Shown in pieces: positions 6,539-22,006 of a stretch of DNA of 63,224 nt (position 1 is the stretch's first letter; every line of letters begins with the position of its first letter). Source of the stretch: Halodesulfovibrio sp. (GTDB lineage Bacteria > Desulfobacterota > Desulfovibrionia > Desulfovibrionales > Desulfovibrionaceae); contig QKEJ01000011.1 of the NCBI GenBank assembly GCA_003252375.1, forward strand, positions 1-63,224, read 5' to 3'. The notes under the pieces were generated by a model. The model saw only the letters and a list, made by a program, of their open reading frames with translations. It did not search any database and was not told the origin of the DNA. A program made the position numbers and the translations under genes.

Positions 6539-6576
6539 TCGCAGCAGGCCCGCAAGGGCCGGTGCACATGCCAAAG

Positions 6577-6604
6577 AAAAGGGCGGGGCCATGTCCCGCC
6601 CTTT
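6577..6604. terminator. Bidirectional rho-independent terminator
   Basis: The arms AAAGGGCGGG and CCCGCCCTTT flank a short loop, with an A-run before and a T-run after. It lies between the convergent NYN gene (plus) and yitT gene (minus) and can serve both. Confidence 0.85.
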
Positions 6605-6611
6605 GTGCGTT

Positions 6612-7466
6612 CTAGTAGATCTTGCGCCTTGAGAATCCCTGGCCCAGAACGGAGAAGGTGTTTTCCACAATGAAGAAGGCGTTGGGGTCGCAGGTGAAGG
6701 TGATTTCCTCCAGCTTCTTGAGCTGGATATTGTTGATCACGGTCATGAGCACGTCCTTGTTCTGGCCCGTGTAGGCTCCCTTGCCTTCCAGGAAGGTGCC
6801 GGAACGGTGCAGTTTGCTCATGACTTCTCCGGCAATGTCCTTGGCATGGTCGGAGATGATGAACACCACCTTTCGTTGGTTGAAAAGGGAGATGACCGAA
6901 TCAATGGTGGTGGAGGAGATGAAGACGTTTATGATGGAGGCCACCACGAGATCCGTTTTCAGAACGGAGAGGGACAGCGAAAAAAGAAAGACGTTGAAGG
7001 CAAAAAAGGTTTTGCCCACACCGATATTGTAGCGCTGATTGAGCATCACGGCCACAATGTCCATGCCGCCGCCCGAGCCGAGGGAACGGAGGATGAGGCC
7101 ACCGCCCAGCCCGCCCAGTACGCCGCTGGCCACGGTGGCGTAGAATTCGTTTTCAATGTGGATGGGAATGTTCAGCATCTTGTAGGCCACGGTGGAGAAG
7201 CACATGGCGTACATGCTGTACAGGCAGAACCGCTTGCTCACCTTGAACCAGCCGAGCAGGAACAGCGGGATGTTCATCAGGAAGAACCATGTGGCCGGGT
7301 CAAGCTTGCCCAGCTTGTAGTAGACAAGGGATCCGAGACCGAAGATGCCGCCGGGGATGAACCCGTGAACGTAGGCGATGGACTTGATACTCACGGCATA
7401 GAGGCAGGAGCCCAGCGTGATGAGGAGCAGGTTCCAGGGAATGGAATAGGTAAAGTCGCGATTCAT
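6612..7466 (-). CDS. YitT family membrane protein (DUF2179)
   Basis: An inner-membrane protein of about 284 residues. Five or six hydrophobic segments (WNLLLITLGSCLYAVSI, GGIFGLGSLVYY, WFFLMNIPLFLLGWF and others) precede a C-terminal soluble DUF2179 domain from about residue 200 (RKVVFIISDHAKDIAGEVM to the end), which contains the family hallmark GKGAYTGQ.KDVL. Function is unknown; the soluble domain resembles ligand-sensing ACT-like folds. I chose ATG 7466 (MNRDFTYSIPW) because conserved sequence begins there. An alternative ATG at 7532 has GGAAG in good position and would add 22 unconserved residues. It diverges from the M48 protease gene. Confidence 0.85.
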   Translation of the reverse strand: MNRDFTYSIPWNLLLITLGSCLYAVSIKSIAYVHGFIPGGIFGLGSLVYYKLGKLDPATWFFLMNIPLFLLGWFKVSKRFCLYSMYAMCFSTVAYKMLNIPIHIENEFYATVASGVLGGLGGGLILRSLGSGGGMDIVAVMLNQRYNIGVGKTFFAFNVFLFSLSLSVLKTDLVVASIINVFISSTTIDSVISLFNQRKVVFIISDHAKDIAGEVMSKLHRSGTFLEGKGAYTGQNKDVLMTVINNIQLKKLEEITFTCDPNAFFIVENTFSVLGQGFSRRKIY

Positions 7467-7709
7467 GGTTCTGCAGTTCTTGCTGTATGCAAAATATGTT
7501 GGGGGTGTTAGGGGTGCGGTCTCATGCGCCAATTCTTCCGGTTAGTCAACTGTTGGATGCATATTTTTTTCATGAGGCACCAGCCGAAGCGCAGGGAAGG
7601 GCATTATTGCCTTTGCTGTCGCCGGTCTTATAGTCAGGCGATGGGCCGACATGGCCGTGCCGTATGGCTGCAAGATGCTGCAACCCGCTGCCAGAAACTG
7701 GAAAAACAT

Positions 7710-8672
7710 ATGAAAACAACGAGAACGAATTACCACTTTTTCGCGCATAACGCCAATCGGGGGCACACCCTTCTGATGCTTGCGTCTCTGGCTCTGCTGG
7801 CCGGGGGGGTGGGCTGGGTTCTTGGTGGATGGCCCGGGTTTTTATGGGCTCTTGTCCTGGCGGCCGGCATCGCGCTGTTTGCCCCGCGCATGTCGCCCGC
7901 TACGCTTATGCGGTTCTACCGGGCCCGTCCGCTGCAGGCCCATGAAGTACCCGGCATCCATGAGGTGGTGGCGGACATGGCGCACCGGGCGGGGCTTCCC
8001 AGGCCGCCGATGCTCTACTACGTGCCGTCCGGCGTGATGAACGCGTTTGCCGTGGGCGGGAGGGGCGATGCGGTTGTCGCCGTGACCGCAGGTTTGCTGA
8101 ACAGACTAGATTTTCAGGAGCTTACAGGGGTTCTGGCGCATGAGATAAGCCATGTCATGCATGATGATCTGGAAGTGATGACCCTTGCGGATGTCTTTAC
8201 ACGCATCACGGGGATCTTTTCCACCTTGGGCAAGGTGCTTGTGCTCATCAACCTTCCCCTGCTGCTGGTGGGGGCGGTGGGCATCTCGTGGTGGCTGGTG
8301 CTGGTGTTGCTGGGGGCGCCCGTGGTGAGCACCCTGCTGCAGCTGGCGCTGTCCCGTGTGCGGGAGTTTGAAGCGGATGCCGCGGCGGCTCGTCTGACAG
8401 GCGACCCGGAAGGATTGGCCCGGGCGCTGGCTCGTATCGAGCGGCAGCAGGGCTCCCTTTTTGATCGCCTGTTCTTCCCAGGCAGAGGCGAGCAGGAGCC
8501 CTCGTTGCTCAGATCGCATCCCGTTACCGACGAGCGGGTGCGGCGGCTTGTGGCCATGGCGCGCGAGCCATGGGCGCACCCCCGGTATATCCGGCAGACC
8601 CAGCTGCGGCCGCAGGTTTTCCGTGTGGTACGCCCCCGGTGGCGCTTTGGCGGATACTGGCTGGGGCTATAG
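7710..8672 (+). CDS. M48 family zinc metalloprotease, HtpX-like
   Basis: A 320-residue membrane-bound protease. Two N-terminal membrane segments (residues about 19-57) precede the catalytic domain. The zinc motif HEISH is at 144-148 (HExxH), and the third ligand is the Glu in VREFEADAAA further downstream. Two more hydrophobic segments lie between them. HtpX-type enzymes degrade misfolded membrane proteins. The frame is open back to 7524, but the upstream part is unlike HtpX; ATG 7710 (MKTTRTNYHFFAHN) fits the family. Transcription faces a small minus-strand ORF. Confidence 0.9.
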   Translation: MKTTRTNYHFFAHNANRGHTLLMLASLALLAGGVGWVLGGWPGFLWALVLAAGIALFAPRMSPATLMRFYRARPLQAHEVPGIHEVVADMAHRAGLPRPPMLYYVPSGVMNAFAVGGRGDAVVAVTAGLLNRLDFQELTGVLAHEISHVMHDDLEVMTLADVFTRITGIFSTLGKVLVLINLPLLLVGAVGISWWLVLVLLGAPVVSTLLQLALSRVREFEADAAAARLTGDPEGLARALARIERQQGSLFDRLFFPGRGEQEPSLLRSHPVTDERVRRLVAMAREPWAHPRYIRQTQLRPQVFRVVRPRWRFGGYWLGL

Positions 8673-8682
8673 GCAGGGCTGG

Positions 8683-8865
8683 TTAGCGCTCCGTGGGTTG
8701 GGCTATGGCCCTAGCGGCTTGCGCCGGCTTGCTCCTGCCCAGCTTGCACCAGTGCAGGCCGTGTGCGTAGTGCTCAAGTTTCTTCATGTCCATTCCCAGT
8801 CCGGTCCCCGGGAGCGGGGGCAGGGGAACTGTCTTTTGGGGCCGTGCGTCTTGTTGGGGGGTCAT
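8683..8865 (-). CDS. Small hypothetical protein
   Basis: A 60-residue ORF with a strong AGGAG ribosome binding site 10 nt before ATG 8865. The protein is Pro-rich at the start, then basic (MDMKKLEHYAHGLHWCKLG). No domain was recognised. It is supported only by the start signal and plausible composition, and it converges with the M48 gene, 10 nt away. It could be a spurious frame. Confidence 0.45.
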   Translation of the reverse strand: MTPQQDARPQKTVPLPPLPGTGLGMDMKKLEHYAHGLHWCKLGRSKPAQAARAIAQPTER

Positions 8866-9175
8866 GGCGCAATCTCCTGCAGGTGGTTCATGGTATTATG
8901 TCTGTCATGATATAATGCCCGCATGGCTGCTTCTCTGTCATGCTTTTTCCAGTAAATGTGGTATGCTTTTGTAAACGCAAAGACCCAATGATAGCTTCAT
9001 GGGGTTGCATTTCTTGTTTTTATCGATGGTTGTCGGCTTTTGGTGTCAAACAGTGCTCAAGAGCGGTGTTGTGTCATTGGGTTCGGTTTGGCGCTATGCA
9101 GGGTGAAAGGATGCGCCATCGGGCTTTCCTTTGGAACCGTGCCCCGGACATTGATGATTTCGAGGAGAGAGATGA
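8866..9175 (+). promoter_or_regulatory. Intergenic region upstream of the first formate dehydrogenase cassette
   Basis: A 310-base, AT-richer stretch with no convincing gene. A TATAAT sits at 8911-8916 with a weak TTCATG 18 nt upstream, a possible sigma-70 promoter reading towards the regulator gene at 9176. The long leader (about 250 nt) that this would create shows no structure I can name. The ribosome binding site GAGGAGAGAG at 9162-9171 is clear. Confidence 0.35.
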
Positions 9176-9598
9176 ATGAGTGCTGCCAGCCGCCCCACAA
9201 TGCGTTTGCACCTGTGGCTTGAAACGGAAAAAGGCGTCTTTTTCGGACAGGGCCGTCTGCAGTTGCTGGAGTATATTGAATACTCGGGTTCGCTCAACGC
9301 CGCTGCCAAGGCTCTGGGCATGTCCTACAGGGCGGCTTGGGGCAAGATTAAGACCTCGGAAGAAGTGCTGGGATTCCAGCTTGTGGAACAGCCGGAAGGC
9401 AAGCGTGGCGGTGGTCAGCTGAGCGAAGCTGCCAAACTGCTTATCGCCAGCTATCGCGAGTGGCTTTCGGAGGTGGAGGCCTTTGCCCTGGAATCCGCCA
9501 AGCAGCACATCGGATATACGCCTACACAGTACTGGTCGGTGCGGGAACTCCCCAACCGCAAGCCGCCGGAAAAGGGAGATGTTCCCCCGACCTCGTAG
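9176..9598 (+). CDS. Winged-helix regulator, ModE N-terminal type (copy 1)
   Basis: A 140-residue protein. Residues about 25-100 form a LysR/ModE-type winged helix: LQLLEYIEYSGSLNAAAKALG, then MSYRAAWGKI as recognition helix and the wing around EGKRGGGQLSE. In ModE this domain is followed by TOBE/Di-MOP molybdate-binding modules; here the chain ends after a short helical tail, so there is no oxyanion-sensing domain. It is encoded just upstream of the Sec-type formate dehydrogenase genes and probably controls them, by inference from position. A close paralogue sits at 13928, before the second dehydrogenase. ATG 9176 is chosen for its spacing from GAGGAGAG. Confidence 0.88.
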   Translation: MSAASRPTMRLHLWLETEKGVFFGQGRLQLLEYIEYSGSLNAAAKALGMSYRAAWGKIKTSEEVLGFQLVEQPEGKRGGGQLSEAAKLLIASYREWLSEVEAFALESAKQHIGYTPTQYWSVRELPNRKPPEKGDVPPTS

Positions 9599-9777
9599 AC
9601 GGTCGATGGCCCTTGTGCGTTCCTGTGCCGGGGATTCGTGCGTCCTGTTACATGTTAAGGTTAACATATCAAATTAATTGATTTTTATTGTTGTGTATTG
9701 ATGGCTGTGGCAACGTGGTGGTGTGTGACGCTCCGGTGGTGCGAGCGTCGTTCACCTAAACTCAAGGAGGCCGATGC

Positions 9778-12700
9778 ATGAATTGCTCACGGCGAGGATT
9801 TCTAAAACTGACCGGCGCAGGGGTTGCCTGCCTGTCGCTTGGTCAGCTGGGGTTTGATCTGAGGGAGGCGAAGGCGTACGCCATGGCCCTCAAGATCGAA
9901 GGAGCGAAGGAGATCATTACGATCTGTCCTTTCTGTTCCGTCAGCTGCAACATGATTGCCCATGTGCGTGACGGAGAACTGATCAGCACCGAAGGGGATC
10001 CTGATTTCCCGGTCAACGAAGGCGCTCTGTGCGCCAAGGGTGCGGCGCTGACGTCCATGTCCAAGAACCACCATCGTCTTCTCAAGCCGAAGTATCGCGC
10101 TCCGTATAGCGATACGTGGGAAGAGAAGGATTGGGACTGGATGCTGGACCGTCTTGCCCGCCGCATCAAGAGTACCCGTGACAGAGAGATTATCCTCAAG
10201 AACCAGAAGGGCCAGACGGTCAACCGTCTGGAATCCGTGTTCCATCTCGGCACCTCGCATGCCGACAACGAGGAATGCGCCCTTATCCACCAAGCCATGC
10301 GCAGCCTGGGTGTCGTCCATATGGACCACCAGGCACGAATTTGACACAGCGCTACTGTAGCGGCTCTGGGAGAGTCGTTCGGACGCGGTGCAATGACCAA
10401 CCATTGGATCGACATCAAGAATGCCGATGCCATCCTCATCATCGGCAGTAATGCCGCAGAACATCATCCGATTTCCTTCAAGTGGGTTTTACGGGCCAAG
10501 GACAAGGGCGCCGTGGTCATGCACGTCGACCCGAAGTTCTCGCGTACTTCCGCGCGTTCCGATTTCCATGTGCCGCTTCGTTCCGGCACGGACATCGCCT
10601 TCATGGGCGGGATGATCAATTTCGCTCTTGAGAACCAGCGCTACTTCAAGGAGTACGTGGTCAACTACACCAACGCTTCCCTCATCGTGGACAAGGGCTT
10701 CGGCTTCAAGGACGGCCTATTCACCGGGTATGACCCGAAGACCCGTTCCTACAACAAGAAGACCTGGTCCTTCGAACTGGATGCCAACGGCGTTCCCAAG
10801 CGGGATACCTCGCTCAAGAACCCCCGTTGCGTGTTCAATCTGATGAAGAAGCACTATTCCCGGTACACCCTCGACAAGGTTTCCTCCGTCACCGGCGTGA
10901 CCAAGGACAACCTGATGCGTGTGTACGAGAACTTCACCGCCACCGGCAGGCCGGACAAGGCGGGCACCATCATGTACGCCCTCGGCTGGACCCAGCATAC
11001 CGTGGGCGTTCAGAACATCCGCAGCGCAGGCATCCTGCAGCTCCTGCTCGGCAACATCGGTGTGGCCGGCGGCGGCATCAACGCCCTGCGCGGCGAACCC
11101 AACGTGCAGGGGTCCACGGACCATACCCTGCTCTATCACATCGTGCCCGGCTACATGGCGCAACCCATGGCTGACTGGCAGACCTACGAAGACTACATCA
11201 CGTCCAACACCCCGGTGAGCAAGGACCCGCAGAGCGCCAACTGGTGGCAGCACAAGCCCAAGTACTTCGCAAGCCTGCTCAAGGCCTGGTACGGGGATTA
11301 CGCCACCAAGGAGAACGGCTTCTGCTACGAGCTCCTGCCCAAGATCGAAAAGGGAGCGGATCATTCGTACATGTTCCTCTTTGACCGCATGTACAAGAAC
11401 CAGATCACCGGCGGCTTCATCATCGGCCTGAACCCGATGAACAGCGTGCCGAACTCCAACAAGATCCGCAAGGCGCTGGACAACCTGGACTGGCTGGTCA
11501 CCATGGACCTGCACCATTCCGAAACCTCGGACAACTGGCACCGCCCCGGTGTGGATCCCAAGACCGTGAAGACGGAAGTCTTCCACTTCCCCTCCGCGCA
11601 TCGCGTGGAGAAGGACGGTACGGTCACCAACTCCGGCCGCTGGCTGGTCTGGCACAACAAGGCCATCGACCCGCAGGGCGAGGCCCGCTCCTTCGGCAAC
11701 CTGTACGTGCCCCTGATGAACAGGCTGCAGGGGATGTATCGCAAGGAAGGCGGTACGCTTTCCGATGCCGTTACCCGTCTGAACTGGGTCGAGAACTACG
11801 ACCCGGAAGAATGGACCAGGCGCATCAACGGGTTCTTTACCCGCGATACCAAGGTCGGCGACAAGGTCTTCAAGAAGGGGCAGCTTGTTCCTTCCTTTGT
11901 GGCCCTGAAGGACGACGGTTCCACTTCCTCGCTGAACTGGCTCTATGCAGGCAGCTACACCGAGGATGAAGGCAACAAGTCCAAGCGGCGCGACATGAGC
12001 CAGACCCCCATGCAGGCCAAGATCGGCCTGTATCCCGGCGTGGCCTGGTGCTGGCCGGTGAACCGCCGTATCCTGTACAACCGCGCCTCCGTGGACATGA
12101 ACGGCAAGCCCTACAACCCGGAAAAGGCCGTCATCGAATGGGATGGCAAGAAGTGGCAGGGCGACGTGCCCGATGGCGGATGGCCGCCCATGGCCACCGG
12201 CAAGGGCCGCTATCCCTTCATCATGAGCAAGAACGGCTTTGGTCAGCTGTTCGGGCCGGGCCGTGCTGACGGTCCCTTCTCCGAACACTACGAGCCGGTG
12301 GAAACGCCCATTGCGTCACATCCGTTCTCCAAGCAGCTGCACAGCCCGGTCTACAAGTTCGTTACCAGTGACATGGACGTTCTGGCCAAGCCCGCCGATC
12401 CCAGATTCCCCGTCGTGCTGACCACGTACAGCCTGACGGAGCACTGGTGCGGCGGTGGCGAAACCAGAAACGTGCCCAACCTGCTGGAAGCCGAACCGCA
12501 GCTCTATGTTGAAATGAGCCCGGAACTGGCCAAGGAGAAGGGGATCGAAAACGGCGATGGCGTGATCATCGAGAGCGCCCGAGGCCGCGTGGAAGCCATT
12601 GCCATGGTCACGGTGCGCATTCGTCCCTTCCTGGTGGAAGGCAAGACGGTCCACCTTGTGGGCATGCCCTTCTGCTTCGGCTGGACCACCCCCGGCACTG

Positions 12701-12819
12701 GCGATTCGACCAACCGTCTGACTCCTTCGGTGGGGGACCCCAACACCACCATTCCGGAGTACAAGGCGTGCTGCGTCAATGTGCGCAAGGCCGATACACT
12801 GACTGAAATCGCTCGATAA
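9778..12819 (+). CDS. fdhA: Formate dehydrogenase catalytic subunit, selenocysteine form (UGA read through)
   Basis: The catalytic subunit of a periplasmic Mo/W-bis-molybdopterin formate dehydrogenase, which oxidises formate to CO2 (or the reverse) and passes electrons to the iron-sulfur subunit and then cytochromes c. It has 1013 residues. A Tat signal (SRRGFLKL, residues 4-11) is followed by one [4Fe-4S] ligand set, C50, C53, C57 and C85. Codon 189 is TGA (10342-10344) in the context QARI-U-HSATV. The frame continues unchanged to 12819, and the tandem paralogue has TGT at this codon, so UGA is best read as selenocysteine. Conventional gene callers would split it at 10344 and 10393. Start ATG 9778 follows AAGGAGG. 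fdhB lies 15 nt downstream. Confidence 0.95.
10345..10385 (+). promoter_or_regulatory. Candidate bacterial SECIS element
   Basis: Right after the UGA, bases 10359-10367 (AGCGGCTCT) can pair with 10371-10379 (AGAGTCGTT), allowing two G-U pairs and leaving an apical loop GGG at 24-26 nt from the UGA. This spacing and a G at the loop start fit bacterial SECIS hairpins read by SelB. An alternative small hairpin, CGCTA-CTG-TAGCG, lies at 10350-10362. The Cys-coding paralogue does not keep this pairing although the protein is conserved. Confidence 0.65.
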
Positions 12820-12834
12820 CCAAGGAGCAAGATC

Positions 12835-13572
12835 ATGACCAAGTCGTTTTTCATCGACACGACACGGTGCACGGCCTGCCGCGGTTGTCAGCTGGCCTGC
12901 AAGGAATGGTTCGAGCTGCCGGCCAACAAGACCAAGCAGCTCGGAACGCACCAGAATCCCCCGGATCTGAATGCGTACAACTATAAACTGGTGCGCTTCA
13001 GCGAGCACATGATTGACGGCAAGGTGGAGTGGTACTTCTTCCCCGACCAGTGCCGTCACTGCGTGTTCCCGCCCTGTCAGGGGGCGGCGGATACGGTGAT
13101 CGAGGGCGCCGTCATACAGGACGAGGCAACCGGAGCCGTCATCTTCACCGAGAAGTCCGCCAAGTTCTCGAAGGAGGACTTCCAGTACGTCCGTGAAGCC
13201 TGTCCCTACGATATCCCGCGTCGCGACGAGAAGACCGGACGCATGGTCAAGTGCATCATGTGCCTTGACCGCGTTCAGGCCGGCATGCTGCCGGCATGTG
13301 TGAAGGTGTGTCCCACCGGAACCATGAACTTTGGCGACCGTGAGGACATGTTGGCGTTGGCCGAGAAGCGTCTGGAGCAGGTCAAGAAGACCAATCCCAA
13401 TGCCAGCCTCGCCAACCCGGATGATGTAAACGTCATCTACCTGCTTGGTGATACGCCGGAACGCTATCACACCCATAGCGTTGCGCAGGCCTCCCCCGTG
13501 GATCGCAAGCAGATGTTTGCGTCCGTGCGGAAGTCGATCGCCAAGACGGTGAATGGAGCCGAGCAGAGCTGA
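12835..13572 (+). CDS. fdhB: Formate dehydrogenase iron-sulfur (beta) subunit, copy 1
   Basis: The 245-residue electron-transfer subunit of the FdhAB heterodimer. Twelve cysteines form three [4Fe-4S] sets: C12/15/18/22 (CTACRGCQLAC), C73/76/81 (CRHCVFPPC) with C123, and C140/143/155/159. It has no signal of its own; the usual route is co-export with the Tat-bearing FdhA. It lacks a membrane anchor, as expected for soluble periplasmic FdhAB that donates to cytochrome c3. A ribosome binding site AAGGAG precedes ATG 12835. A GC-rich hairpin lies downstream. Confidence 0.95.
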   Translation: MTKSFFIDTTRCTACRGCQLACKEWFELPANKTKQLGTHQNPPDLNAYNYKLVRFSEHMIDGKVEWYFFPDQCRHCVFPPCQGAADTVIEGAVIQDEATGAVIFTEKSAKFSKEDFQYVREACPYDIPRRDEKTGRMVKCIMCLDRVQAGMLPACVKVCPTGTMNFGDREDMLALAEKRLEQVKKTNPNASLANPDDVNVIYLLGDTPERYHTHSVAQASPVDRKQMFASVRKSIAKTVNGAEQS

Positions 13573-13927
13573 GATCGGCCATAGGAACCTGAACCGACCC
13601 GGAGGAGGCTGCGGATCCCTGCCCGCAGCCTCCTGTCAGGGGAATCCCGATATTGGTCCGGCTTTTTTGTGCCGGTTTGAAAAGAATAGGTTTTATTCTG
13701 TCTTTTCTGATAGGTATATATATGTTTGAAAAGGCACGACTGGGTGATTGCCTTTTTTGCAATCGATAACATACTTATTTTATTGCATGATATGTTTTGT
13801 GCCAAAGTGAGGGTAAGTTCAAGGGTCTGTCACCTGTCATTGTGTAGGTCTATGCAGTGCATAGAGGAATGTGCGGTTTGTTTCCCTTTGATCCACCCCC
13901 CGCACACTGCTCCTCGCTGGAGATCAT
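13573..13927 (+). other. Intergenic region between the two dehydrogenase cassettes
   Basis: A 355-base stretch without a convincing gene. It holds the hairpin at 13604-13633 and then a clearly AT-rich part (about 13665-13815, with TATATATATG near 13717), which probably carries the promoter of the second regulator gene. I could not place -35/-10 boxes with confidence. Confidence 0.5.
13604..13633 (+). terminator. GC-rich hairpin after first fdhB
   Basis: The arms GGAGGCTGCGG and CCGCAGCCTCC are perfectly complementary over 11 bp with an 8-nt loop. No T-run follows directly, so it may be a weak terminator or an mRNA-stabilising 3' structure separating the two cassettes. Confidence 0.55.
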
Positions 13928-14353
13928 ATGCACAAGACACCGGAATGCCCCGTAATGCGGATGCATTTGTGGTTGCAGGCCAATGACGGAGTGCTGATAG
14001 GGCACGGGCGTGTTCAGCTGCTGGAGCACATTCATTTCCTGCGCTCGCTCACGGCTGCCGCCAAGGCGCTCGGTATGTCGTACCGGGCTGCATGGGGCAA
14101 GATTCGGGCAACGGAGGCGTTGCTGGGCATACGATTACTGGAAGAGACTGAGGGAAAACGTACGGGCTGCCGTCTGAGCAGGGACGGACTTCTGTACATA
14201 GAGGCATACAGGAACTGGGAGCATGAAGTTGAACAGTACGCTCTTGAATCTGCCCGGGAGTACTTTGCGTGCCTCGAGCGTTACCGCTCCTCGCGTGACC
14301 TGCCCTTGCGCAGGGCGCCACAGGGCGGTGTCGGGACTGGCCCGGTGCGCTGA
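13928..14353 (+). CDS. Winged-helix regulator, ModE N-terminal type (copy 2)
   Basis: A 141-residue paralogue of the product at 9176. The recognition-helix block ALGMSYRAAWGKI is identical, and LQ/VQLLE, the EGKR wing and the final ALESA helix are shared. It too lacks any TOBE molybdate-binding domain. The N-terminus (MHKTPECPVMRMHLWLQ) lines up with copy 1 from RMHLWL on; an internal ATG at 13955 would also give a full domain. It is placed before the Cys-type dehydrogenase genes. The two regulators may bind different sites, because the segment after the recognition helix differs. Confidence 0.87.
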   Translation: MHKTPECPVMRMHLWLQANDGVLIGHGRVQLLEHIHFLRSLTAAAKALGMSYRAAWGKIRATEALLGIRLLEETEGKRTGCRLSRDGLLYIEAYRNWEHEVEQYALESAREYFACLERYRSSRDLPLRRAPQGGVGTGPVR

Positions 14354-14525
14354 TGCCGGGGGTATCCATGTGACGACAGGAGTGGTGCGTCTGCGGATGT
14401 GCTATCTGTAACATTGTAATATTGTTGTATTTTCTTTCAAAAATGTGCGTTGCATGCCACCGTGCTGGTACGGGCTATCCGATAGGCGGATGCCGTTTAC
14501 CATCAATCTTACAGGAGGCCGAAGC

Positions 14526-17500
14526 ATGCAATGCACACGGCGAGGATTCCTGAAGCTGACCGGTGCCGGGGTGGCATGCCTTTCACTGGGACGTATGGGA
14601 GTCAATCTGGCAGAGGCAAAGGCGTACAGCATGAAGCTGAAGACCGAGGGGGCCAAGGAAATCCTGACCGTCTGTCCGTTCTGCTCCGTGAGCTGTAACA
14701 TCATCGCGTCCGTACGCGATGGCAAGCTCATCAGCACGGAAGGCGATCCTGATTTTCCGGTCAACGAGGGAGCGCTGTGCGCCAAGGGCGCTGCGCTTAC
14801 GTCCATGTCCAACAACCACCATCGCTTGCTCAAGCCCAAGTACCGGGCTCCCTACAGCGATACGTGGGAAGAGAAGGATTGGGGCTGGATGCTGGAAACG
14901 ATCGCCCGGCGTGTCAAGGACACCCGGGACCGCGACATGATCCTCAAGAATGCCAAGGGGCATACCGTGAACCGCGTGGAGAGCCTGTTCCACATGGGTA
15001 CTTCGCATGCTTCCAACGAGGAATGCTCCGTTATCCATCAGGCCATACGCGGCCTCGGTATTGTGCATTTTGACCATCAGGCTCGTGTCTGTCACAGCTC
15101 CACGGTTTCGTCCCTGGCGGAATCCTTCGGGCGCGGCGCCATGACCAACCACTGGATCGACATCCAGAACGCCGACGTCATTCTCATCATGGGCAGCAAC
15201 GCCGCCGAGCACCATCCTATTTCCTTCAAGTGGGTGTTGCGCGCCAAGGACAAGGGCGCCGTTGTCATGCATGTGGATCCCAAATTCTCGCGTACCTCCG
15301 CGCGTTGCGACTTCCATGTGCCGCTGCGGTCCGGCACGGACATCGCCTTCATGGGCGGGCTCATCAACCACGTGCTCGAACATGAAAAGTACTTCAGGGA
15401 GTATGTGGTCAACTACACCAATGCCGCCCTTATCGTCGGCAAGGACTTCGCCTTCAATGATGGGCTGTTCAGCGGGTATGACCCCAAGACCCGCAGCTAC
15501 GACCGTTCCAAGTGGGCGTTCGAGGAAGATTCCAAGGGGCTCATCAAGCGTGACGACACGCTGAAGCACCCCCGGTGCGTTTTCAATCTCCTGCGCAAGC
15601 ACTATGCCCGGTATACCGTGGAAGATGTTTCTTCCGTAACCGGTGTGCCCAGGGAAAAGCTGCTCAAGGTCTACGAGAACTTCGCCTCTTCCGGCACCGC
15701 CACGCGGGCCGGTTCCATCCTCTATGCGCTGGGCTGGACCCAGCATACCGTGGGGGTGCAGAATATCCGCACCGCGGGCATCCTGCAGTTGCTGCTCGGC
15801 AACATTGGCCGTTCCGGCGGCGGCATCAACGCCCTGCGCGGTGAACCCAACGTGCAGGGGTCCACGGATATCGCCCTCCTGTATCACGTGGTGCCCGGCT
15901 ACATGCCCATGCCCATTTCCGACTGGCAAAGCTACGACGAGTACAACAAGGTCAATACGCCGGCTGCCAAGAGCGCGAAGAGCGTCAACTGGTGGCAGCA
16001 TAAGCCCAAGTACTTCACCAGCCTTCTCAAGGCCTGGTACGGTGACTACGCCACCAAGGAAAACGGGTACTGCTATGACCTGCTGCCCAAGCTCGACAAG
16101 GGGGCGGACCATTCCTACCTCTTCATGTTCGACCGCATGTACAAGCAGCAGCTCAAGGGCGGCTTCATCGTTGGGGTAAACCCGGCAAACAGCCTGCCGA
16201 ACACCAAGAAGATCCGCAAGGCGCTGGATACCCTGGACTGGATGGTGGTGATGGACCTGCACCATTCCGAAACCTCGGAAAACTGGCGCAGAAAGGGTAC
16301 GGATCCCAAGAGCGTGAAGACTGAGGTCTTCCTGCTGCCCTCCGCGCATCGCGTGGAAAAGCCCGGCACGGTCACCAACTCCGGCCGTTGGGTGGTATGG
16401 CATAACCAGTGCGTGAAGCCCATGGGTGAAGCGCGCAACTTCGGTGACTTCTTCGTGCCGATGGTCAATGAGGTGCGCAAGCTCTACAAGGCCGAGGGCG
16501 GTACCCTGCCCGAGCCGATTCTCAAGCTCAACTGGCCTGAAGTCTACGACACCGAGGAGTGGACCAAGCGGATCAATGGCTACTTCTGGCGCGACACCGT
16601 GGTGAATGGCAAGAAGTACCGCAAGGGGCAGCTTGTTCCTTCCTTCACCGCGCTGAAGGATGACGGTTCCACCTCTTCTCTCTGCTGGGTTTACACCGGC
16701 AGCTACACTGAAGAGTTCGGCAACCTGAGCAAACGCCGCGATCCTTCGCAGACGCCGCTGCAGGCCAAGATCGGTCTGTATCCCAACTGGTCGTGGTCAT
16801 GGCCTGCCAACCGCCGCATCCTGTACAACAGAGCCTCGGTGGACGTGAACGGCAAGCCTTTCGATCCGGAGCGCATCGTCATCATGTGGGACGGAAAGCA
16901 GTGGGTGGGTGACATTCCTGATGGCGGCGCACCGCCGCTTGCCACGGCCAAGGGAACCCTGCCGTTCATCATGGCGCCCGCAGGCATGGGCCAGCTGTAC
17001 GGTCCCGGCCGTATGGACGGCCCCTTTGCCGAGCACTATGAGCCCGCGGAAACCCCCATTGCCTCGCATCCGTTCTCCGGGCAGCTGAGCAGCCCGGTAT
17101 ACAAGTTCGTCAGCAGCGATATGGACGTGCTTGCCAAGCCTGCCGATCCCAGATTCCCCGTGGTGCTGACGACCTACAGCCTGACGGAACACTGGTGTGG
17201 TGGTGGCGAAACCCGTAACGTTCCCAACCTGCTGGAAGCCGAACCGCAACTCTATGTGGAAATGAGCCATGAGCTGGCCAAGGAAAAGGGCATAGCCAAT
17301 GGTGATGGCGTGATTCTGGAAAGCGCGCGTGGTCAGGTAGAGGCCATAGCCATGGTGACGGTGCGCATGCGTCCGCTTACGGTGCAGGGCAAGACCGTGC
17401 ATCTGGTGGGCATGCCGTTCTGTTTCGGCTGGACCACCCCCGGATGCGGTGATTCCACCAACAGGCTGACGCCTTCGGTGGGCGACCCCAATACCACCAT

Positions 17501-17567
17501 TCCGGAAACCAAGGCCTGCTGCGTGAACATCCGCAAGGCGGGCAAGCTGAACGAACTCGCCCGTTAG
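14526..17567 (+). CDS. fdhA: Formate dehydrogenase catalytic subunit, cysteine form
   Basis: The full-length paralogue of the upstream selenoprotein, also exactly 1013 residues and closely similar by eye along its whole length. A Tat signal (TRRGFLKL) leads, followed by the same CPFCSVSC...C [4Fe-4S] set. Codon 189 (15090-15092) is TGT, giving QARVCHSSTV: cysteine replaces selenocysteine as metal ligand while the neighbouring His is kept. Cys forms of this enzyme work but are generally slower than Sec forms. The frame is open back to 14445, but ATG 14526 has AGGAGG in place and begins at the conserved N-terminus. fdhB copy 2 follows after 20 nt. Confidence 0.96.
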   Translation: MQCTRRGFLKLTGAGVACLSLGRMGVNLAEAKAYSMKLKTEGAKEILTVCPFCSVSCNIIASVRDGKLISTEGDPDFPVNEGALCAKGAALTSMSNNHHRLLKPKYRAPYSDTWEEKDWGWMLETIARRVKDTRDRDMILKNAKGHTVNRVESLFHMGTSHASNEECSVIHQAIRGLGIVHFDHQARVCHSSTVSSLAESFGRGAMTNHWIDIQNADVILIMGSNAAEHHPISFKWVLRAKDKGAVVMHVDPKFSRTSARCDFHVPLRSGTDIAFMGGLINHVLEHEKYFREYVVNYTNAALIVGKDFAFNDGLFSGYDPKTRSYDRSKWAFEEDSKGLIKRDDTLKHPRCVFNLLRKHYARYTVEDVSSVTGVPREKLLKVYENFASSGTATRAGSILYALGWTQHTVGVQNIRTAGILQLLLGNIGRSGGGINALRGEPNVQGSTDIALLYHVVPGYMPMPISDWQSYDEYNKVNTPAAKSAKSVNWWQHKPKYFTSLLKAWYGDYATKENGYCYDLLPKLDKGADHSYLFMFDRMYKQQLKGGFIVGVNPANSLPNTKKIRKALDTLDWMVVMDLHHSETSENWRRKGTDPKSVKTEVFLLPSAHRVEKPGTVTNSGRWVVWHNQCVKPMGEARNFGDFFVPMVNEVRKLYKAEGGTLPEPILKLNWPEVYDTEEWTKRINGYFWRDTVVNGKKYRKGQLVPSFTALKDDGSTSSLCWVYTGSYTEEFGNLSKRRDPSQTPLQAKIGLYPNWSWSWPANRRILYNRASVDVNGKPFDPERIVIMWDGKQWVGDIPDGGAPPLATAKGTLPFIMAPAGMGQLYGPGRMDGPFAEHYEPAETPIASHPFSGQLSSPVYKFVSSDMDVLAKPADPRFPVVLTTYSLTEHWCGGGETRNVPNLLEAEPQLYVEMSHELAKEKGIANGDGVILESARGQVEAIAMVTVRMRPLTVQGKTVHLVGMPFCFGWTTPGCGDSTNRLTPSVGDPNTTIPETKACCVNIRKAGKLNELAR

Positions 17568-17587
17568 CGCTGGCAAGGAGAAAGCAC

Positions 17588-18325
17588 ATGTCAAAATCAT
17601 TTCTCATAGATACGACGCGATGCACGGCCTGCCGGGGTTGCCAGCTGGCCTGCAAGGAGTGGTATGAACTGCCCGCCAACAAGACGTTGCAGATGGGCAC
17701 CCACCAGAACCCCCCGGACCTGAACCCCAACAACTACAAGTTGGTGCGGTTCAGCGAACACCTTATCGGTGACAAGGTCGAATGGTACTTCTTCCCCGAC
17801 CAGTGTCGCCATTGCCTGACCCCCCCCTGCATGGGGGCTGCGGACACGGTGCTGGAAGGGGCCGTGATCCAGGACGAAAAGACAGGCGCGGTCATTTTCA
17901 CGGAAAAGTCCGCAAAGATCGCCAAGGCTGACTTCGAGTATATCAGGGAGGCCTGTCCCTACGATATCCCGCGAAGGGACGAAAAGACCGGTCGCATGTC
18001 CAAGTGCATCATGTGCATTGACCGTGTTCAGGCCGGCAAGCTGCCTGCTTGCGTACAGGCCTGCCCCACGGGCACCATGAACTTCGGTGAACGCGAGGAC
18101 ATGCTTGCCCTGGCGGAAAAGCGGTTGGCCAAGGTCAAGAAGACCCATCCCAACGCCGTACTGGCTGATCCGTACGACGTGAACGTCATATACCTGCTGG
18201 GTGATTCGCCCGAACGCTACCATACGCACAGTGTGGCCGAGGCTCCCGCCATGGGCCGTCGGCAGCTGTTCGCATCGCTCCGTTCCGGCATCGGTTCCGG
18301 CAGGTCCGGTGTGCATAAAGGATGA
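17588..18325 (+). CDS. fdhB: Formate dehydrogenase iron-sulfur (beta) subunit, copy 2
   Basis: A 245-residue protein, the same length as copy 1 and colinear with it. It has the same twelve cluster cysteines: CTACRGCQLAC, CRHCLTPPC, the CPYDIPRR site, then CIMC and the ACVQAC pair. It is the electron acceptor subunit for the Cys-type catalytic subunit. Differences from copy 1 concentrate in the loop after the second cysteine group and in the C-terminal 20 residues, which here are Arg/Ser/Gly-rich. The ribosome binding site is AAGGAG. The maturation genes fdhE and fdhD follow on the same strand. Confidence 0.95.
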   Translation: MSKSFLIDTTRCTACRGCQLACKEWYELPANKTLQMGTHQNPPDLNPNNYKLVRFSEHLIGDKVEWYFFPDQCRHCLTPPCMGAADTVLEGAVIQDEKTGAVIFTEKSAKIAKADFEYIREACPYDIPRRDEKTGRMSKCIMCIDRVQAGKLPACVQACPTGTMNFGEREDMLALAEKRLAKVKKTHPNAVLADPYDVNVIYLLGDSPERYHTHSVAEAPAMGRRQLFASLRSGIGSGRSGVHKG

Positions 18326-18422: not shown

Positions 18423-19346
18423 ATGGACGCTCTCTATCTTGCCAAGCGCAAATCCGCTTCCCAGACTCTCTCCGACATCTGTGACCGCAGGCCGGCACTG
18501 GCCAGTGTGCTGACCGTCTTCATGCCCCTGTATGCCGCGCGGGAGGAACTGCGCTCCTCGTTGCAGGGCTCGGTGTCCGCACTGCCCGAGCTGCAGCATC
18601 CCAATGCCGAATTCCTGTCCCAGGGGGTCCCCCTGCTTGCCAATGCGTCCTTTGACTGGATTGATGCCCCGTTCAAGGAGGCCGCCAAGGCCATCCTTCC
18701 GCAGCTGGCCGGGCTGGAGGCGCTGGCCGCTGATATTGAAGCCTACGCCAAGGGGCTTGAATCAGGAAAACTGGTTCCCTCGACGCTGGTGGCCGCATAC
18801 CTGAGCAGCGACGCCAAGAGTCTTGTGAAGATCACCAAGCCGTTTGTAGCCTCGGCCTCAGTTGGTGCGTTTCTTACCCAGCAGATTCTCGGTCCTGTGC
18901 TGCATGCCGCCCGTAATGCAAGCGGGGAAACGGATACGGCAGCATGGCGTCAGGGGTACTGTCCCGTCTGTGGTTCCTTCCCTTCCATCGGGTGTCTCGG
19001 ACGGCCCGATCCTGATCAGTCCGAGTTCGCCAAGGGCGGAGGCGGCAAGAAATTTCTTCATTGTTCCCTGTGCGGCAATGACTGGCATTTCCGGCGTGGG
19101 GCATGCCCCGGATGCAACAACGAGGAGCCCGGAGCCATCGAGTACCTGCGTGCGCCCGATACGCCGTGGGAGCGCATCGAGATGTGCCGCAAGTGCAATA
19201 CCTATGTGCCTAACATCGATTTGCGCGAGACCACGGAGAACCCGGATCTGGATGCCGAGAGCCTCGGCATGCTCCATCTCGATCTCAAGGCAGCCGAGGA
19301 GGGCTTGAAGCCTCTGGCCCCGGCATTCTGGAATACGTTTGACTAG
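18423..19346 (+). CDS. fdhE: Formate dehydrogenase accessory protein FdhE
   Basis: A 307-residue cytoplasmic maturation protein. The N-terminal helical half is followed by a rubredoxin-like metal-binding half with four CxxC motifs at residues 180/183, 214/217, 228/231 and 255/258 (CPVC, CSLC, CPGC, CRKC). FdhE interacts with the catalytic subunit before export and is needed for active formate dehydrogenase in Escherichia coli; the same role here is inferred from family and position. ATG 18423 follows AGGAAAGGTATCCCC. The stop overlaps a possible TTG start of fdhD; fdhD more likely starts at 19363. Confidence 0.95.
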   Translation: MDALYLAKRKSASQTLSDICDRRPALASVLTVFMPLYAAREELRSSLQGSVSALPELQHPNAEFLSQGVPLLANASFDWIDAPFKEAAKAILPQLAGLEALAADIEAYAKGLESGKLVPSTLVAAYLSSDAKSLVKITKPFVASASVGAFLTQQILGPVLHAARNASGETDTAAWRQGYCPVCGSFPSIGCLGRPDPDQSEFAKGGGGKKFLHCSLCGNDWHFRRGACPGCNNEEPGAIEYLRAPDTPWERIEMCRKCNTYVPNIDLRETTENPDLDAESLGMLHLDLKAAEEGLKPLAPAFWNTFD

Positions 19347-19362
19347 TACAACGGGGGCCTGC

Positions 19363-20223
19363 ATGCAGTCCATACAGCGAACCATACTCCGGTACCGGGA
19401 TGGAAGCACCCATGCGTCGGATGATTCCATCCTTGCCGAAGTGCCGCTTGAGATCGTGGTGAACGGCGTGCCATGGGCGGCACTGATGTGTACGCCAGGA
19501 AGCGATGAGGACCTCGCTCTCGGATACAGCCTTACCGAGGGCCTGTTGCGTGGCGACGAGGTCTACAGCGTGGAGAAGCACGAGCGATCGGAGCAGGGCA
19601 ACCGTATCTTCCTGTCCATGCCGGGCGGTCCGGAGCGGGTGCACGGGGCCCTGAAAGGGCGCGGCGTGCGCATGGGATCTTCCTGCAGCGGCAATCGCAA
19701 TGCCGTGTCCGTGGATGATCTGGTGCGCCCCTTGTGCCGTGTGGAGTCCGGGTTCACGGTGGCTCCCGCCATGCTGCACCGGTTGCAGAAGGAATCCGAG
19801 GCCTGTCAGGCGCTGTTTTCCAGTACCGGAGCAACCCACTTCTGCGCCCTGTTTGACGCAGACAGCGTTCTGCTGGCCTATGCGGAGGACGTGGGACGGC
19901 ACAATGCGCTGGACAAGGCTGCCGGGCAGGTTTTCCGCCTCGGCATGAACGATGCGGTGCGGCTGGTTATGCTTTCCTCCCGTCTCAGTTCCGAGATGGT
20001 GCAGAAGTCCATCGCCATCGGGGCGCAGATGGTGGCCGGATTCTCTGCCGTCACCTCGCGTGCCGTGGCCCTGTCCGATGCGGCCGGACTGACGCTGGTC
20101 GGGTTCATGCGGGCGCCGCGCATGAACATCTATACCCATCCTGAGCGGCTGGGGTTGCGGAGGCCGGAAGGGGTGGCATACTCTGCCGGATTTCCGCATG
20201 AAACATCTGATATTGTTCGCTGA
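19363..20223 (+). CDS. fdhD: Formate dehydrogenase sulfurtransferase FdhD
   Basis: A 286-residue FdhD-family protein that brings sulfur from IscS-type desulfurases to the molybdopterin cofactor and is essential for formate dehydrogenase activity. Family motifs are visible: TPGSDEDLALGYSLTEGLL, YAEDVGRHNALDKAAG, VMLSSRLSSEMVQK and the C-terminal GFMRAPRMNIY. The catalytic loop reads GSSCSGN with Cys108; E. coli FdhD has CxxC here, so the second cysteine is absent. ATG 19363 with GGGGG upstream is preferred over TTG 19339, which would overlap fdhE. Co-transcribed with fdhE by position. Confidence 0.94.
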   Translation: MQSIQRTILRYRDGSTHASDDSILAEVPLEIVVNGVPWAALMCTPGSDEDLALGYSLTEGLLRGDEVYSVEKHERSEQGNRIFLSMPGGPERVHGALKGRGVRMGSSCSGNRNAVSVDDLVRPLCRVESGFTVAPAMLHRLQKESEACQALFSSTGATHFCALFDADSVLLAYAEDVGRHNALDKAAGQVFRLGMNDAVRLVMLSSRLSSEMVQKSIAIGAQMVAGFSAVTSRAVALSDAAGLTLVGFMRAPRMNIYTHPERLGLRRPEGVAYSAGFPHETSDIVR

Positions 20224-20347
20224 ATATCCTTCTGGGCCGCTGGTGTATAATTTCACATGGTTTACCTGTGCCGGAACCGGGTCTATATTCACGCACTGTA
20301 GCATGAACCACCATCAGCACTGAACGCACCTCTTGTGGAGACGAAAT

Positions 20348-22006
20348 ATGACGCAGGTATTCAAGAATATTGGCAATCACACCTTTGATGAGTTCGTGGA
20401 AATGGCCACGCTCTTTCATAATTATCCGGCCCCGGGCCTCATTCTCGGCGGCTACATGGTGGAAGAGGCGCGCAGGCATATTCCCGAAGGGATCCTGTAC
20501 GAGGCCATTGCCGAGACGTCGTGGTGCCTGCCGGACGCCATCCAGATGCTTACCCCCTGCACCATCGGCAACGGCTGGGTGCGGATCATGAATTTCGGGC
20601 TCTACGCCATGAGCCTGTTCGACAAGCATACCGGAAAGGGCGTCCGTGTCTGGCTGGACATGCACAAGCTTGCCCCGGATTCCGAGGTCCTAACCTGGTA
20701 CCTGAAGCTCAAGCCCAAGCATGAGCAGGACTCCGACAAGCTGCTCCGTGAGATTGCCGAGGCGGGGGCCGACCTGTGTTCCGTGCGGCCCATCAATGTG
20801 CGTACTGATCTGCTGGTCAAGCGCAGCAAGGGGGGCATTGTCGAATGCCCGGTCTGCCACGAGGCCTATCCCGCGGTGCATGGTCCCATCTGCCGTTCCT
20901 GCAAGGGCGAGAATCCCTATGTGAATGCAGTCGGCGGTACCGTGGCCGACATTGTCTATCCGCTTCCGGGCAACATCCGGACCATGGCCGCCACCGACGC
21001 CGTGGGCAAGGAAGCCGTGCACGACATGACCAGCATTGATCCCGGCAAGAGCAAGGGGGCTGCCTTCCGCAAGGGGCAGGTCCTTGATGTAGGTGACCTG
21101 TGCCGCCTGCAGCACATGGGGCGGAACAATCTGTACGTGGAAAGCGGCGACGTGGGCGAGGAATGGGTGCACGAGAACGATTGTGCACGTGCTTTTGCGA
21201 GCGCCCTGTCCGGTGCGGGTATTGTGACCGACGGTGAGCCCCATGAGGGCAAGGTGACGCTCAAGGCCCAGCACGACGGCCTGTTCCGCGTGAATACCGA
21301 CGCCCTGTATGCCTTCAACCTGTGCCCCGGTGTCATGGCCGCCAGCCGGTGCGGCTGGTCTCTGGTCAAGGAAGGGGCCGAGGTGGCGGGGACCCGTGCC
21401 ATTCCCCTGTACCTGCAGCGTCCGCAGTTTATCCGGGCCATGCAGACGCTGGAGGCGGCAGAGACGCCCATTTTCACCGTTCTGCCCCTCAGGCAGGCCA
21501 AGGTTGGCGTGCTGATTACGGGCGATGAGGTCTTCAGCGGCAAGATCGAGGACCGCTTCGAGGAGATCATCCGCAAGAAGGTGACGGCGCTGGGCAGCGA
21601 AGTGCGGCAGGCCATCATCGTGCCGGACAACCGTGAGCAGATCCGGGACAATGCCCGTACGCTGCTGGATGCCGGCTGCGACATCATCATCACCACGGCA
21701 GGGCTGTCGGTGGACCCCGACGATGTGACCCGCCACGGCCTTGTGGACGCGGGAGCGCACGACATGCTCTACGGGGCGCCGCTCCTGCCCGGAACCATGA
21801 CGCTCATAGGCAGGATAGGCAACGCACGTCTGCTGGGTGTTCCCGCCTGCGCGCTGTTCTTCAAGCACACCAGCCTCGATCTGCTGCTGCCGCGCCTGCT
21901 GGCGGATGTGGACATCACCCGCGACGACCTTGCCCGTCTGGGCGAGGGGGGCATGTGCATGGGCTGCGCCAACTGCACCTTCCCCAAATGTCCGTTCGGC
22001 AAGTAG
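20348..22006 (+). CDS. FmdE-family / molybdopterin-binding fusion protein
   Basis: A 552-residue protein. Residues 1-190 form an FmdE-like domain (subunit E of formylmethanofuran dehydrogenase family) with the hallmark CTIGNGW (71-77) and a zinc finger CPVC...CRSC (167-185). Residues about 385-520 resemble a MoCF/MoeA-type molybdopterin-binding domain (VGVLITGDEVFSG, TTAGLSVDPDDVT). The chain ends in a cysteine-rich tail, CMGCANCTFPKC (537-548). It lies just after fdhE-fdhD and before a strong terminator, so a role in cofactor handling or insertion for the dehydrogenases is inferred; none is demonstrated. ATG 20348 follows GGAGACG. Confidence 0.85.
   Translation: MTQVFKNIGNHTFDEFVEMATLFHNYPAPGLILGGYMVEEARRHIPEGILYEAIAETSWCLPDAIQMLTPCTIGNGWVRIMNFGLYAMSLFDKHTGKGVRVWLDMHKLAPDSEVLTWYLKLKPKHEQDSDKLLREIAEAGADLCSVRPINVRTDLLVKRSKGGIVECPVCHEAYPAVHGPICRSCKGENPYVNAVGGTVADIVYPLPGNIRTMAATDAVGKEAVHDMTSIDPGKSKGAAFRKGQVLDVGDLCRLQHMGRNNLYVESGDVGEEWVHENDCARAFASALSGAGIVTDGEPHEGKVTLKAQHDGLFRVNTDALYAFNLCPGVMAASRCGWSLVKEGAEVAGTRAIPLYLQRPQFIRAMQTLEAAETPIFTVLPLRQAKVGVLITGDEVFSGKIEDRFEEIIRKKVTALGSEVRQAIIVPDNREQIRDNARTLLDAGCDIIITTAGLSVDPDDVTRHGLVDAGAHDMLYGAPLLPGTMTLIGRIGNARLLGVPACALFFKHTSLDLLLPRLLADVDITRDDLARLGEGGMCMGCANCTFPKCPFGK

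Follow-up and report, generated by a model that had tools for sequence, protein, structure and literature searches.

Why should a bacterium hold two formate dehydrogenases side by side, one with selenocysteine (Sec) as the metal ligand and the other with cysteine, each behind a regulator gene of its own? The question is raised by a 63,224-nucleotide stretch of DNA from Halodesulfovibrio sp. (positions 1 to 63,224 of contig QKEJ01000011.1, assembly GCA_003252375.1; hereafter the window), in which the genes reg1-fdhA1-fdhB1-reg2-fdhA2-fdhB2 stand head to tail and are followed by fdhE-fdhD. The genome that holds the window is designated G000, and residue numbers are those of the window FdhA proteins. 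A preliminary description of this DNA had claimed a tandem duplication that gave rise to a Sec/Cys isoenzyme pair. The gene order, coordinates, and lengths in that description (1013 residues for both FdhA proteins, 245 for both FdhB proteins, and 140 and 141 for the regulators) were confirmed for all six genes, as was the assignment of Sec to the first FdhA and Cys to the second, a TGA codon with a hairpin being matched by a TGT codon with a broken hairpin.

We consider it probable that a tandem duplication in Halodesulfovibrio was followed by a switch of the downstream copy to Cys, with companion changes elsewhere in the protein, and that the outcome is an isoenzyme pair contingent on selenium. 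The segment that was duplicated in tandem within the genus spans 4-5 kb (regulator with promoter, fdhA, and fdhB), and the upstream copy kept Sec together with its Sec insertion sequence (SECIS). In the downstream copy a Cys codon replaced TGA and the SECIS hairpin was lost; this copy also acquired Ser in place of Ala192 and Thr in place of Ser416, changes that may have helped to build a working Cys-type Mo/W enzyme. Both FdhAB dimers would have fdhE and fdhD in common, as well as the cofactor genes. We infer that both enzymes are active and are used according to selenium supply, such that the Sec form would serve when selenium allows UGA decoding and the Cys form would sustain formate oxidation or CO2 reduction when selenium is too scarce for it.

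Origin of the paired cassettes

Within the window the paralogues share 77% (FdhA), 79% (FdhB), and 51% (regulators) identity. Nine other members of the genus were searched for this FdhA type; G006 contained a Sec/Cys double cassette, seven members had a single Sec copy, always in the order reg-fdhA(Sec)-fdhB-fdhE-fdhD-FmdE, and the best matches in G003 belonged to another clade. The window shares its six-gene layout with G006 (L039), where the locus lies within a contig of 1.6 Mb, an argument against an artefact of assembly. In a tree of FdhA plus FdhB from 21 cassettes, the Cys pair of the window and G006 was sister to a trio of Sec copies from G000, G005, and G006 (bootstrap/Shimodaira-Hasegawa-like approximate likelihood ratio test 93/96, not starred). 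The approximately unbiased test, applied to groups named after an earlier first tree, rejected the union of all Sec copies in one clade (p 0.023) and the placement of the Cys pair with other species (p 0.013). The tree and the test place both copies within Halodesulfovibrio rather than in distant clades, in support of the tandem duplication that had been claimed; an independent acquisition of the Cys cassette found no support in the trees. The window genome also carries a second FdhA Sec/Cys pair of another clade (L065; G000:C107:10001-28201), in which the genes are about 6 kb apart (Sec, 6136-9153; Cys, 15586-18198, truncated at the 5' side by the edge of the contig).

Both window FdhA proteins pass the TIGR01553 cut-off of 814 bits, possess the sequence RRGFLK of a twin-arginine translocation (Tat) signal near the N-terminus, and keep the ligand at position 189 (Cys or Sec), the adjacent His190, and the active-site Arg438. 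The cassette genes include none for a membrane subunit, which points to the two-subunit type, and the best PDB matches of both proteins were 1H0H (Desulfovibrio gigas) and entries for Desulfovibrio vulgaris FdhAB (6SDR and others). We propose that both window enzymes are periplasmic FdhAB dimers.

Sec decoding was examined by a search for tRNA-Sec and SelB, and the window genome carries both (80.2 bits, G000:C18, and 363 bits, G000:C196, respectively). A SECIS covariance model was built from 24 other Sec genes and used to search the window at E values up to 10; the fdhA1 site scored 72.5 bits, compared with 24.2 bits for the equivalent codons of fdhA2. Two weak matches lay elsewhere in the window (10.6 and 7.5 bits), and none was found before the Cys cassette, so that a SECIS-like, SelB-linked switch at that position is unsupported. 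Each of the seven pairs of the hairpin (nucleotides 20-36 from the T of TGA) can form in 0.99-1.0 of 124 Sec sequences, and in 38 Cys sequences the corresponding fractions were 0.13, 0.58, 0.58, 0.39, 0.08, 0.97, and 0.37. The folding energy of the fdhA1 hairpin was barely below that of shuffled sequences (z -1.64 for the window), and the evidence for the SECIS is thus its conservation. Because the hairpin is kept in Sec sequences and degraded in Cys sequences, the Sec/Cys calls are backed by an RNA element in addition to the codon. In all seven Sec/Cys pairs that were compared, the share of synonymous changes in the eight SECIS codons was above that in the rest of the gene. The excess was significant singly in G042 (6/7 vs 150/947, p 0.0001) and G148 (5/7 vs 193/827, p 0.01); for the window pair it was 3/5 vs 282/775 (p 0.36), and five of the seven pairs gave values above 0.05. 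These comparisons hint that, after the switch to Cys, the hairpin disappears more quickly than expected from drift, as if by active removal.

Residues that accompany the exchange of Sec for Cys

The Sec/Cys switch recurs throughout this family. An order-wide search of 297 genomes, with the best two matches of each scored, gave Cys-type matches of the nearer clade (at least 60% identity to the window Cys copy) in at least 23 genomes, all of which were then read as Cys. A Sec-type match of the same clade was also present in at least 18 of the 23 (16 among the matches listed, plus G083 and G207). Ten head-to-tail Sec/Cys loci were read: the window, G006, G148 (L173), G167 (L174), G207 (L184 and L245), L155, in which fdhE lies between the two copies, L156, G042 (L070), G003 (L067), and G022 (L071). 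On a quick tree of 162 sequences, 10 Sec/Cys changes were needed and 10 were forced by well-supported branches; with 189 sequences the numbers were 20 and 18, again on a quick tree. The nesting of the Cys genes gives the direction as Sec to Cys, in agreement with Zhang et al. 2006 (PMC1794560), who reported that FdhA had the most Sec-to-Cys conversions (seven), that none went in reverse, and that SECIS remnants remain in some Cys genes; the accessible part of that paper mentions neither tandem Sec/Cys pairs nor companion residues. Recurrent switching with a signature at the level of residues goes beyond the reading in the preliminary description. Two of the loci had peculiarities of their own. 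The Sec gene of the G207 tandem pair (L245) appears split between two frames, with an apparent frame break around codon 240, and only its Sec codon was read. L156, a Cys/Sec pair on a contig titled Spirochaetes bacterium MAG, has a Cys gene that groups with a gene from Desulfobacterales (L155), pointing either to an exchange across phyla or to misbinning of the contig.

To find the residues that change along with the ligand, we scanned the columns of the 162-sequence alignment (124 Sec and 38 Cys sequences, the latter in 10 clades). Residue 192, three positions after the ligand, had become Ser in 8 of the 10 Cys clades and was Ser in 0 of 124 Sec sequences. Residue 416 had become Thr in 7 of the 10 clades, Thr being present in 14.5% of the Sec sequences, and the next best column reached 4 of 10. 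Ten independent pairs were drawn from a tree built without columns 189, 192, and 416; with p values uncorrected for the picking of columns, they averaged 8.3 to 0 for residue 192 (median p 0.0078) and 6.5 to 0 for residue 416 (median p 0.0156, range to 0.125). In the young G042 pair 57 columns differ, 192 and 416 both among them, and in the young G040 pair 89 columns differ, including 192 and not 416.

A further sample was assembled from full-length matches without an in-frame TGA, together with some Sec partners and 7 of 144 plasmid records. Its 17 new Cys sequences had Ser192 (12) or Pro (5) and formed 11 new clades, except that L213 (Pro) joined an old one. Ser192 was present in 8 of the 11 new clades, the three without it being of the Pro type, and Thr416 was present in 4 of the 6 new clades whose nearest Sec relative has no Thr. 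Over all 189 sequences, Ser192 occurred in 44 of the 55 Cys sequences and in none of the 134 Sec sequences, Ser193 in 8 and 0, and Ser at either position (+3 or +4) in 50 and 0; every Sec sequence had Ala or Pro at +3 (134/134). Thr416 was found in 35 of 55 Cys and 21 of 134 Sec sequences, a weaker trend than that at residue 192. When each of the 21 clades was typed by the nearest Sec relative of one of its sequences, 15 of 16 Ala-type Cys clades had mostly Ser192, compared with 1 of 5 Pro-type clades. The Pro-type clades tend instead to change Thr193 to Ser; 5 of 8 sequences in one clade did so, and two others there had Ser192. This change is also seen in L214, the Sec partner of which (L215, same genome) is at a distance of 0.02.

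In thiol redox proteins, a Ser one turn after a Cys at the start of a helix makes up the CxxS arrangement. Window residues 192 and 416 align with P195 and A419 of D. vulgaris FdhAB, an enzyme in which the Sec ligand, U192, is reported to lie near the start of helix I191-P198, and in which this helix moves once Sec leaves the metal (PMC11323313). Ser192 may thus support the Cys thiolate at the helix start and offset the higher pKa of Cys. We give about even odds to a general rule for this family upon the loss of selenium, in which a Cys ligand comes with a Ser placed one turn further along the helix (CxxS), or at +4 in the Pro type, and often with Thr416. At the N-terminus of the helix the thiolate would be supported by this Ser, and these sites would be what a sulfur formate dehydrogenase of this type needs in order to replace selenium. 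The sequence of PDB entry 9QM0, presumably the U192C variant of the D. vulgaris enzyme, has Cys at the ligand position and retains Pro195, Thr196, and Ala419; the further changes made in nature are thus not in that entry. The CxxS motif at the helix start offers a testable mechanism by which the Cys copy would be a re-tuned enzyme and not a mere stand-in.

Regulators and competing explanations

The preliminary description had taken the regulator in front of each copy as support for differential use. The first part of this claim stands, in that each copy has a regulator of its own. Such an arrangement is unusual, a regulator match directly before each copy being found in 2 of the 10 head-to-tail loci (the window and G006). 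Differential use is not supported by the regulators, given the missing TOBE domain and the similar operators. Both proteins match the ModE N-terminal DNA-binding domain only, with scores below the TIGR00637 cut-off, and neither gave a Pfam match to the oxyanion-binding TOBE domain at E 0.001; it does not follow that they are dedicated metal sensors. Their presumed recognition helices (SYRAAWGKI) are identical. Elsewhere in the window genome, L242 and L243 (G000:C21:10129-10368) represent a third ModE-type DNA-binding protein, away from the window formate dehydrogenase genes, and in L057, L060, and L061 FmdE/MoCF adjoins a ModE-type regulator even where the two genes are apart from fdhA or oriented against it.

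A palindrome, TGTTAN4TAACA, is conserved before the two fdhA copies, and fdhA genes of the nearer clade often have it about 105-150 bases upstream. Leaving out one Sec and two Cys sequences with fewer than 200 upstream bases, the 111 Sec genes of that clade had 0 mismatches in 27 cases, 1 in 24, and at least 3 in 44, and the 29 Cys genes had 0 in 5 and 1 in 8. By comparison, 3180 shuffled upstream stretches gave 0 mismatches in 3 and 1 in 29. None of the 12 Sec and 7 Cys genes of the farther clade had the palindrome with fewer than two mismatches, and its occurrence is thus not general. The fdhA1 site was the best in the window at 23.3 bits with an operator matrix built without that site; using the matrix from eight genus sequences, the fdhA2 site scored 8.6 bits, and the best scores of five shuffled windows were 10.5-14.8. 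A decayed operator before the Cys copy was considered and dropped, since 9 of 10 core positions are retained at an equal distance despite the low score. On the basis of its neighbourhood and symmetry, the palindrome is a putative binding site of the reg1 and reg2 products.

Several observations weigh against the reading that we prefer, and some of them also bear on other explanations. The palindrome is kept before both fdhA copies and is alike there, which leaves opposite regulation without a visible basis. The copies might instead differ mainly in metal (Mo or W), direction, or redox partner, with Sec/Cys being secondary and the ModE-type regulators dividing expression by oxyanion supply. Regulators of this type are found beside FmdE-MoCF genes in many loci, and tungsten/molybdenum regulation of formate dehydrogenase expression in D. 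vulgaris is, by its title, the subject of a paper. We nevertheless regard a division by metal or direction as quite unlikely, given regulators without a TOBE domain, a palindrome that is alike at both copies, beta subunits of equal length and 79% identity, and the 8 of 10 head-to-tail loci that have no regulator before each copy. The regulator tree (67 sequences) groups reg2 with the regulators of other species (96/77, not starred) instead of with reg1 of the trio, and it places reg2 inside the genus (100/99). It conflicts with the FdhAB tree on timing, so that good support extends to a duplication within the genus but not to the exact branch. G005 carries the Sec copy alone and, if the FdhAB tree is right, has lost the Cys copy; reg2 evolves fast (72% identity between G000 and G006, compared with 89% for reg1). 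These last two points, along with the longer stem of the Cys pair on the FdhAB tree (0.19 vs 0.036 for the Sec trio), would suit a duplication for gene dosage followed by relaxed decay, the Cys copy being a declining spare and the Sec-to-Cys change a neutral loss. We consider such decay improbable. FdhA2 retains 90% identity between G000 and G006, with 0.061 nonsynonymous (dN) and 0.622 synonymous (dS) changes per site (dN/dS about 0.1), and to judge by its codons the Cys copy is under purifying selection; moreover, its active-site residues are kept, and recurrent, specific companion changes are unexpected under decay.

The companion residues themselves require similar caution. Five of the 55 Cys enzymes have Ser at neither 192 nor 193 (L203, L204, L224, and the plasmid genes L234 and L235), and Ser192 might reflect a mere release from RNA constraint, by drift after the loss of the SECIS, or spread by local gene conversion. 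Codon 192 occupies nucleotides 10-12 from the T of TGA, near the SECIS, and a T at nucleotide 10 is found in 0 of 124 Sec and 32 of 38 Cys sequences. When 114 nucleotides of local DNA were compared, 5 of 10 clades, the one of the window and G006 included, were nearer to a Cys gene from another clade than to their sister Sec gene, and local gene conversion between Cys genes may have been a source of Ser192, in the clade of the window as well. This comparison is not decisive, as the same pattern would be expected after release from the SECIS. As an account of the residue signature, release or conversion still appears unlikely. Codon 192 is outside the conserved hairpin, and free drift would favour the Pro type, where CCN to TCN is a transition, whereas Ser192 predominates in Ala-type clades. 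The sister Sec gene was nearer in the other 5 of 10 clades, including the three youngest pairs of the set, and residue 416 is about 680 nucleotides away from codon 192.

Relation to known enzymes

D. vulgaris FdhAB (6SDR; 9QM0) resembles the window enzymes in family, length, Tat signal, and Mo/W catalytic subunit. Its site is of the Pro type (Sec/Cys-H-S-P-T), whereas the window has an Ala-type Sec copy (UHSAT) and a natural Cys copy (CHSST). Pairs of Sec and Cys formate dehydrogenase paralogues within one genome are already a known kind, as in fdhFSec/fdhFCys of Treponema primitia and FdhF1 (Cys)/FdhF2 (Sec) of Acetobacterium woodii, with selenium control reported in the former and assumed in the latter (PMC6288185). 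Those enzymes are hydrogen-dependent CO2 reductases and hence of another type; in T. primitia the two genes lie 14 genes apart, and the accessible part of that paper does not tell of a regulator before each copy. What the window adds is a clear tandem duplication in which each copy has its regulator, and the repeated switches in the family add the residue signature. With T. primitia as precedent, selenium- or metal-dependent use of the window pair is plausible by analogy. No companion-residue signature for formate dehydrogenases was found by title or abstract in the open-licence literature. The nearest printed idea that we found, as far as the accessible text of PMC10958145 goes, concerns mammalian GPX6, in which repeated Sec-to-Cys exchange came with convergent substitutions, as in FdhA. 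GPX6 is a different enzyme, the text describes lineages that exchanged Sec rather than a Sec/Cys pair within one genome, and its classic activity was lost (PMC10958145).

It has long been asked why selenium is needed by some enzymes, a question for which tandem Sec/Cys pairs in one cell are natural matched experiments, repeated often in the FdhA family. The companion residues would reduce it to a few point mutants in D. vulgaris FdhAB, for which many structures have been solved, and they bear on selenium-free formate dehydrogenases for CO2 reduction. With a regulator per copy, the tandem pair would also be a simple system for the choice between selenium and sulfur enzymes in sulfate reducers.

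The features of the locus are collected in Table 1. The start of fdhA2 was placed at the ATG behind AGGAGG; the GTG start in the open reading frame list, which gives 1040 residues, is less likely.

Table 1. Positions of genes, codons, and putative control elements in the window.
Feature	Position	Strand	Remarks
reg1, ModE-type winged-helix DNA-binding protein, 140 residues, no TOBE	9176..9598	+	HTH_1; TIGR00637 65.5 bits vs cut-off 98.5
Putative operator of fdhA1, CATGTTAAGGTTAACATA	9651..9668	.	10/10 core positions of TGTTAN4TAACA; -125 from start
fdhA1, Sec-type periplasmic formate dehydrogenase catalytic subunit (predicted), Tat signal, 1013 residues	9778..12819	+	TIGR01553 1369 bits
TGA codon, selenocysteine 189 of fdhA1	10342..10344	+	sole in-frame TGA
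Ala192 codon of fdhA1	10351..10353	+	+3 from Sec
SECIS hairpin of fdhA1	10361..10377	+	nucleotides 20-36 counted from T of TGA
fdhB1, iron-sulfur beta subunit, 245 residues	12835..13572	+	
reg2, second ModE-type DNA-binding protein, 141 residues	13928..14353	+	51% identity to reg1; TIGR00637 55.5 bits
Putative operator of fdhA2, TGTGCTATCTGTAACATT	14398..14415	.	9/10 core positions; -126 from start
fdhA2, Cys-type paralogue, 1013 residues	14526..17567	+	TIGR01553 1331 bits
TGT codon, Cys189 of fdhA2	15090..15092	+	at Sec position; hairpin broken
Ser192 codon of fdhA2	15099..15101	+	+3 from Cys; recurrent companion substitution
Thr416 codon of fdhA2	15771..15773	+	second recurrent companion position; Ser in sister Sec trio
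fdhB2, iron-sulfur beta subunit, 245 residues	17588..18325	+	
fdhE, formate dehydrogenase accessory protein, behind both cassettes	18423..19346	+	best match, below Pfam and NCBIfam cut-offs
fdhD, accessory sulfurtransferase	19339..20223	+	
FmdE/molybdopterin-binding (MoCF) fusion protein	20333..22006	+	conserved neighbour

One further difference from the D. vulgaris enzyme was seen at residue 873 (12394-12396 and 17142-17144), where both window FdhA proteins read KPADPRFP and D. vulgaris FdhA has Cys. The matching D. vulgaris residue, presumably C872 of an oxygen-protecting disulfide, is Cys in the 9QM0 sequence and Ala in 8CM4.

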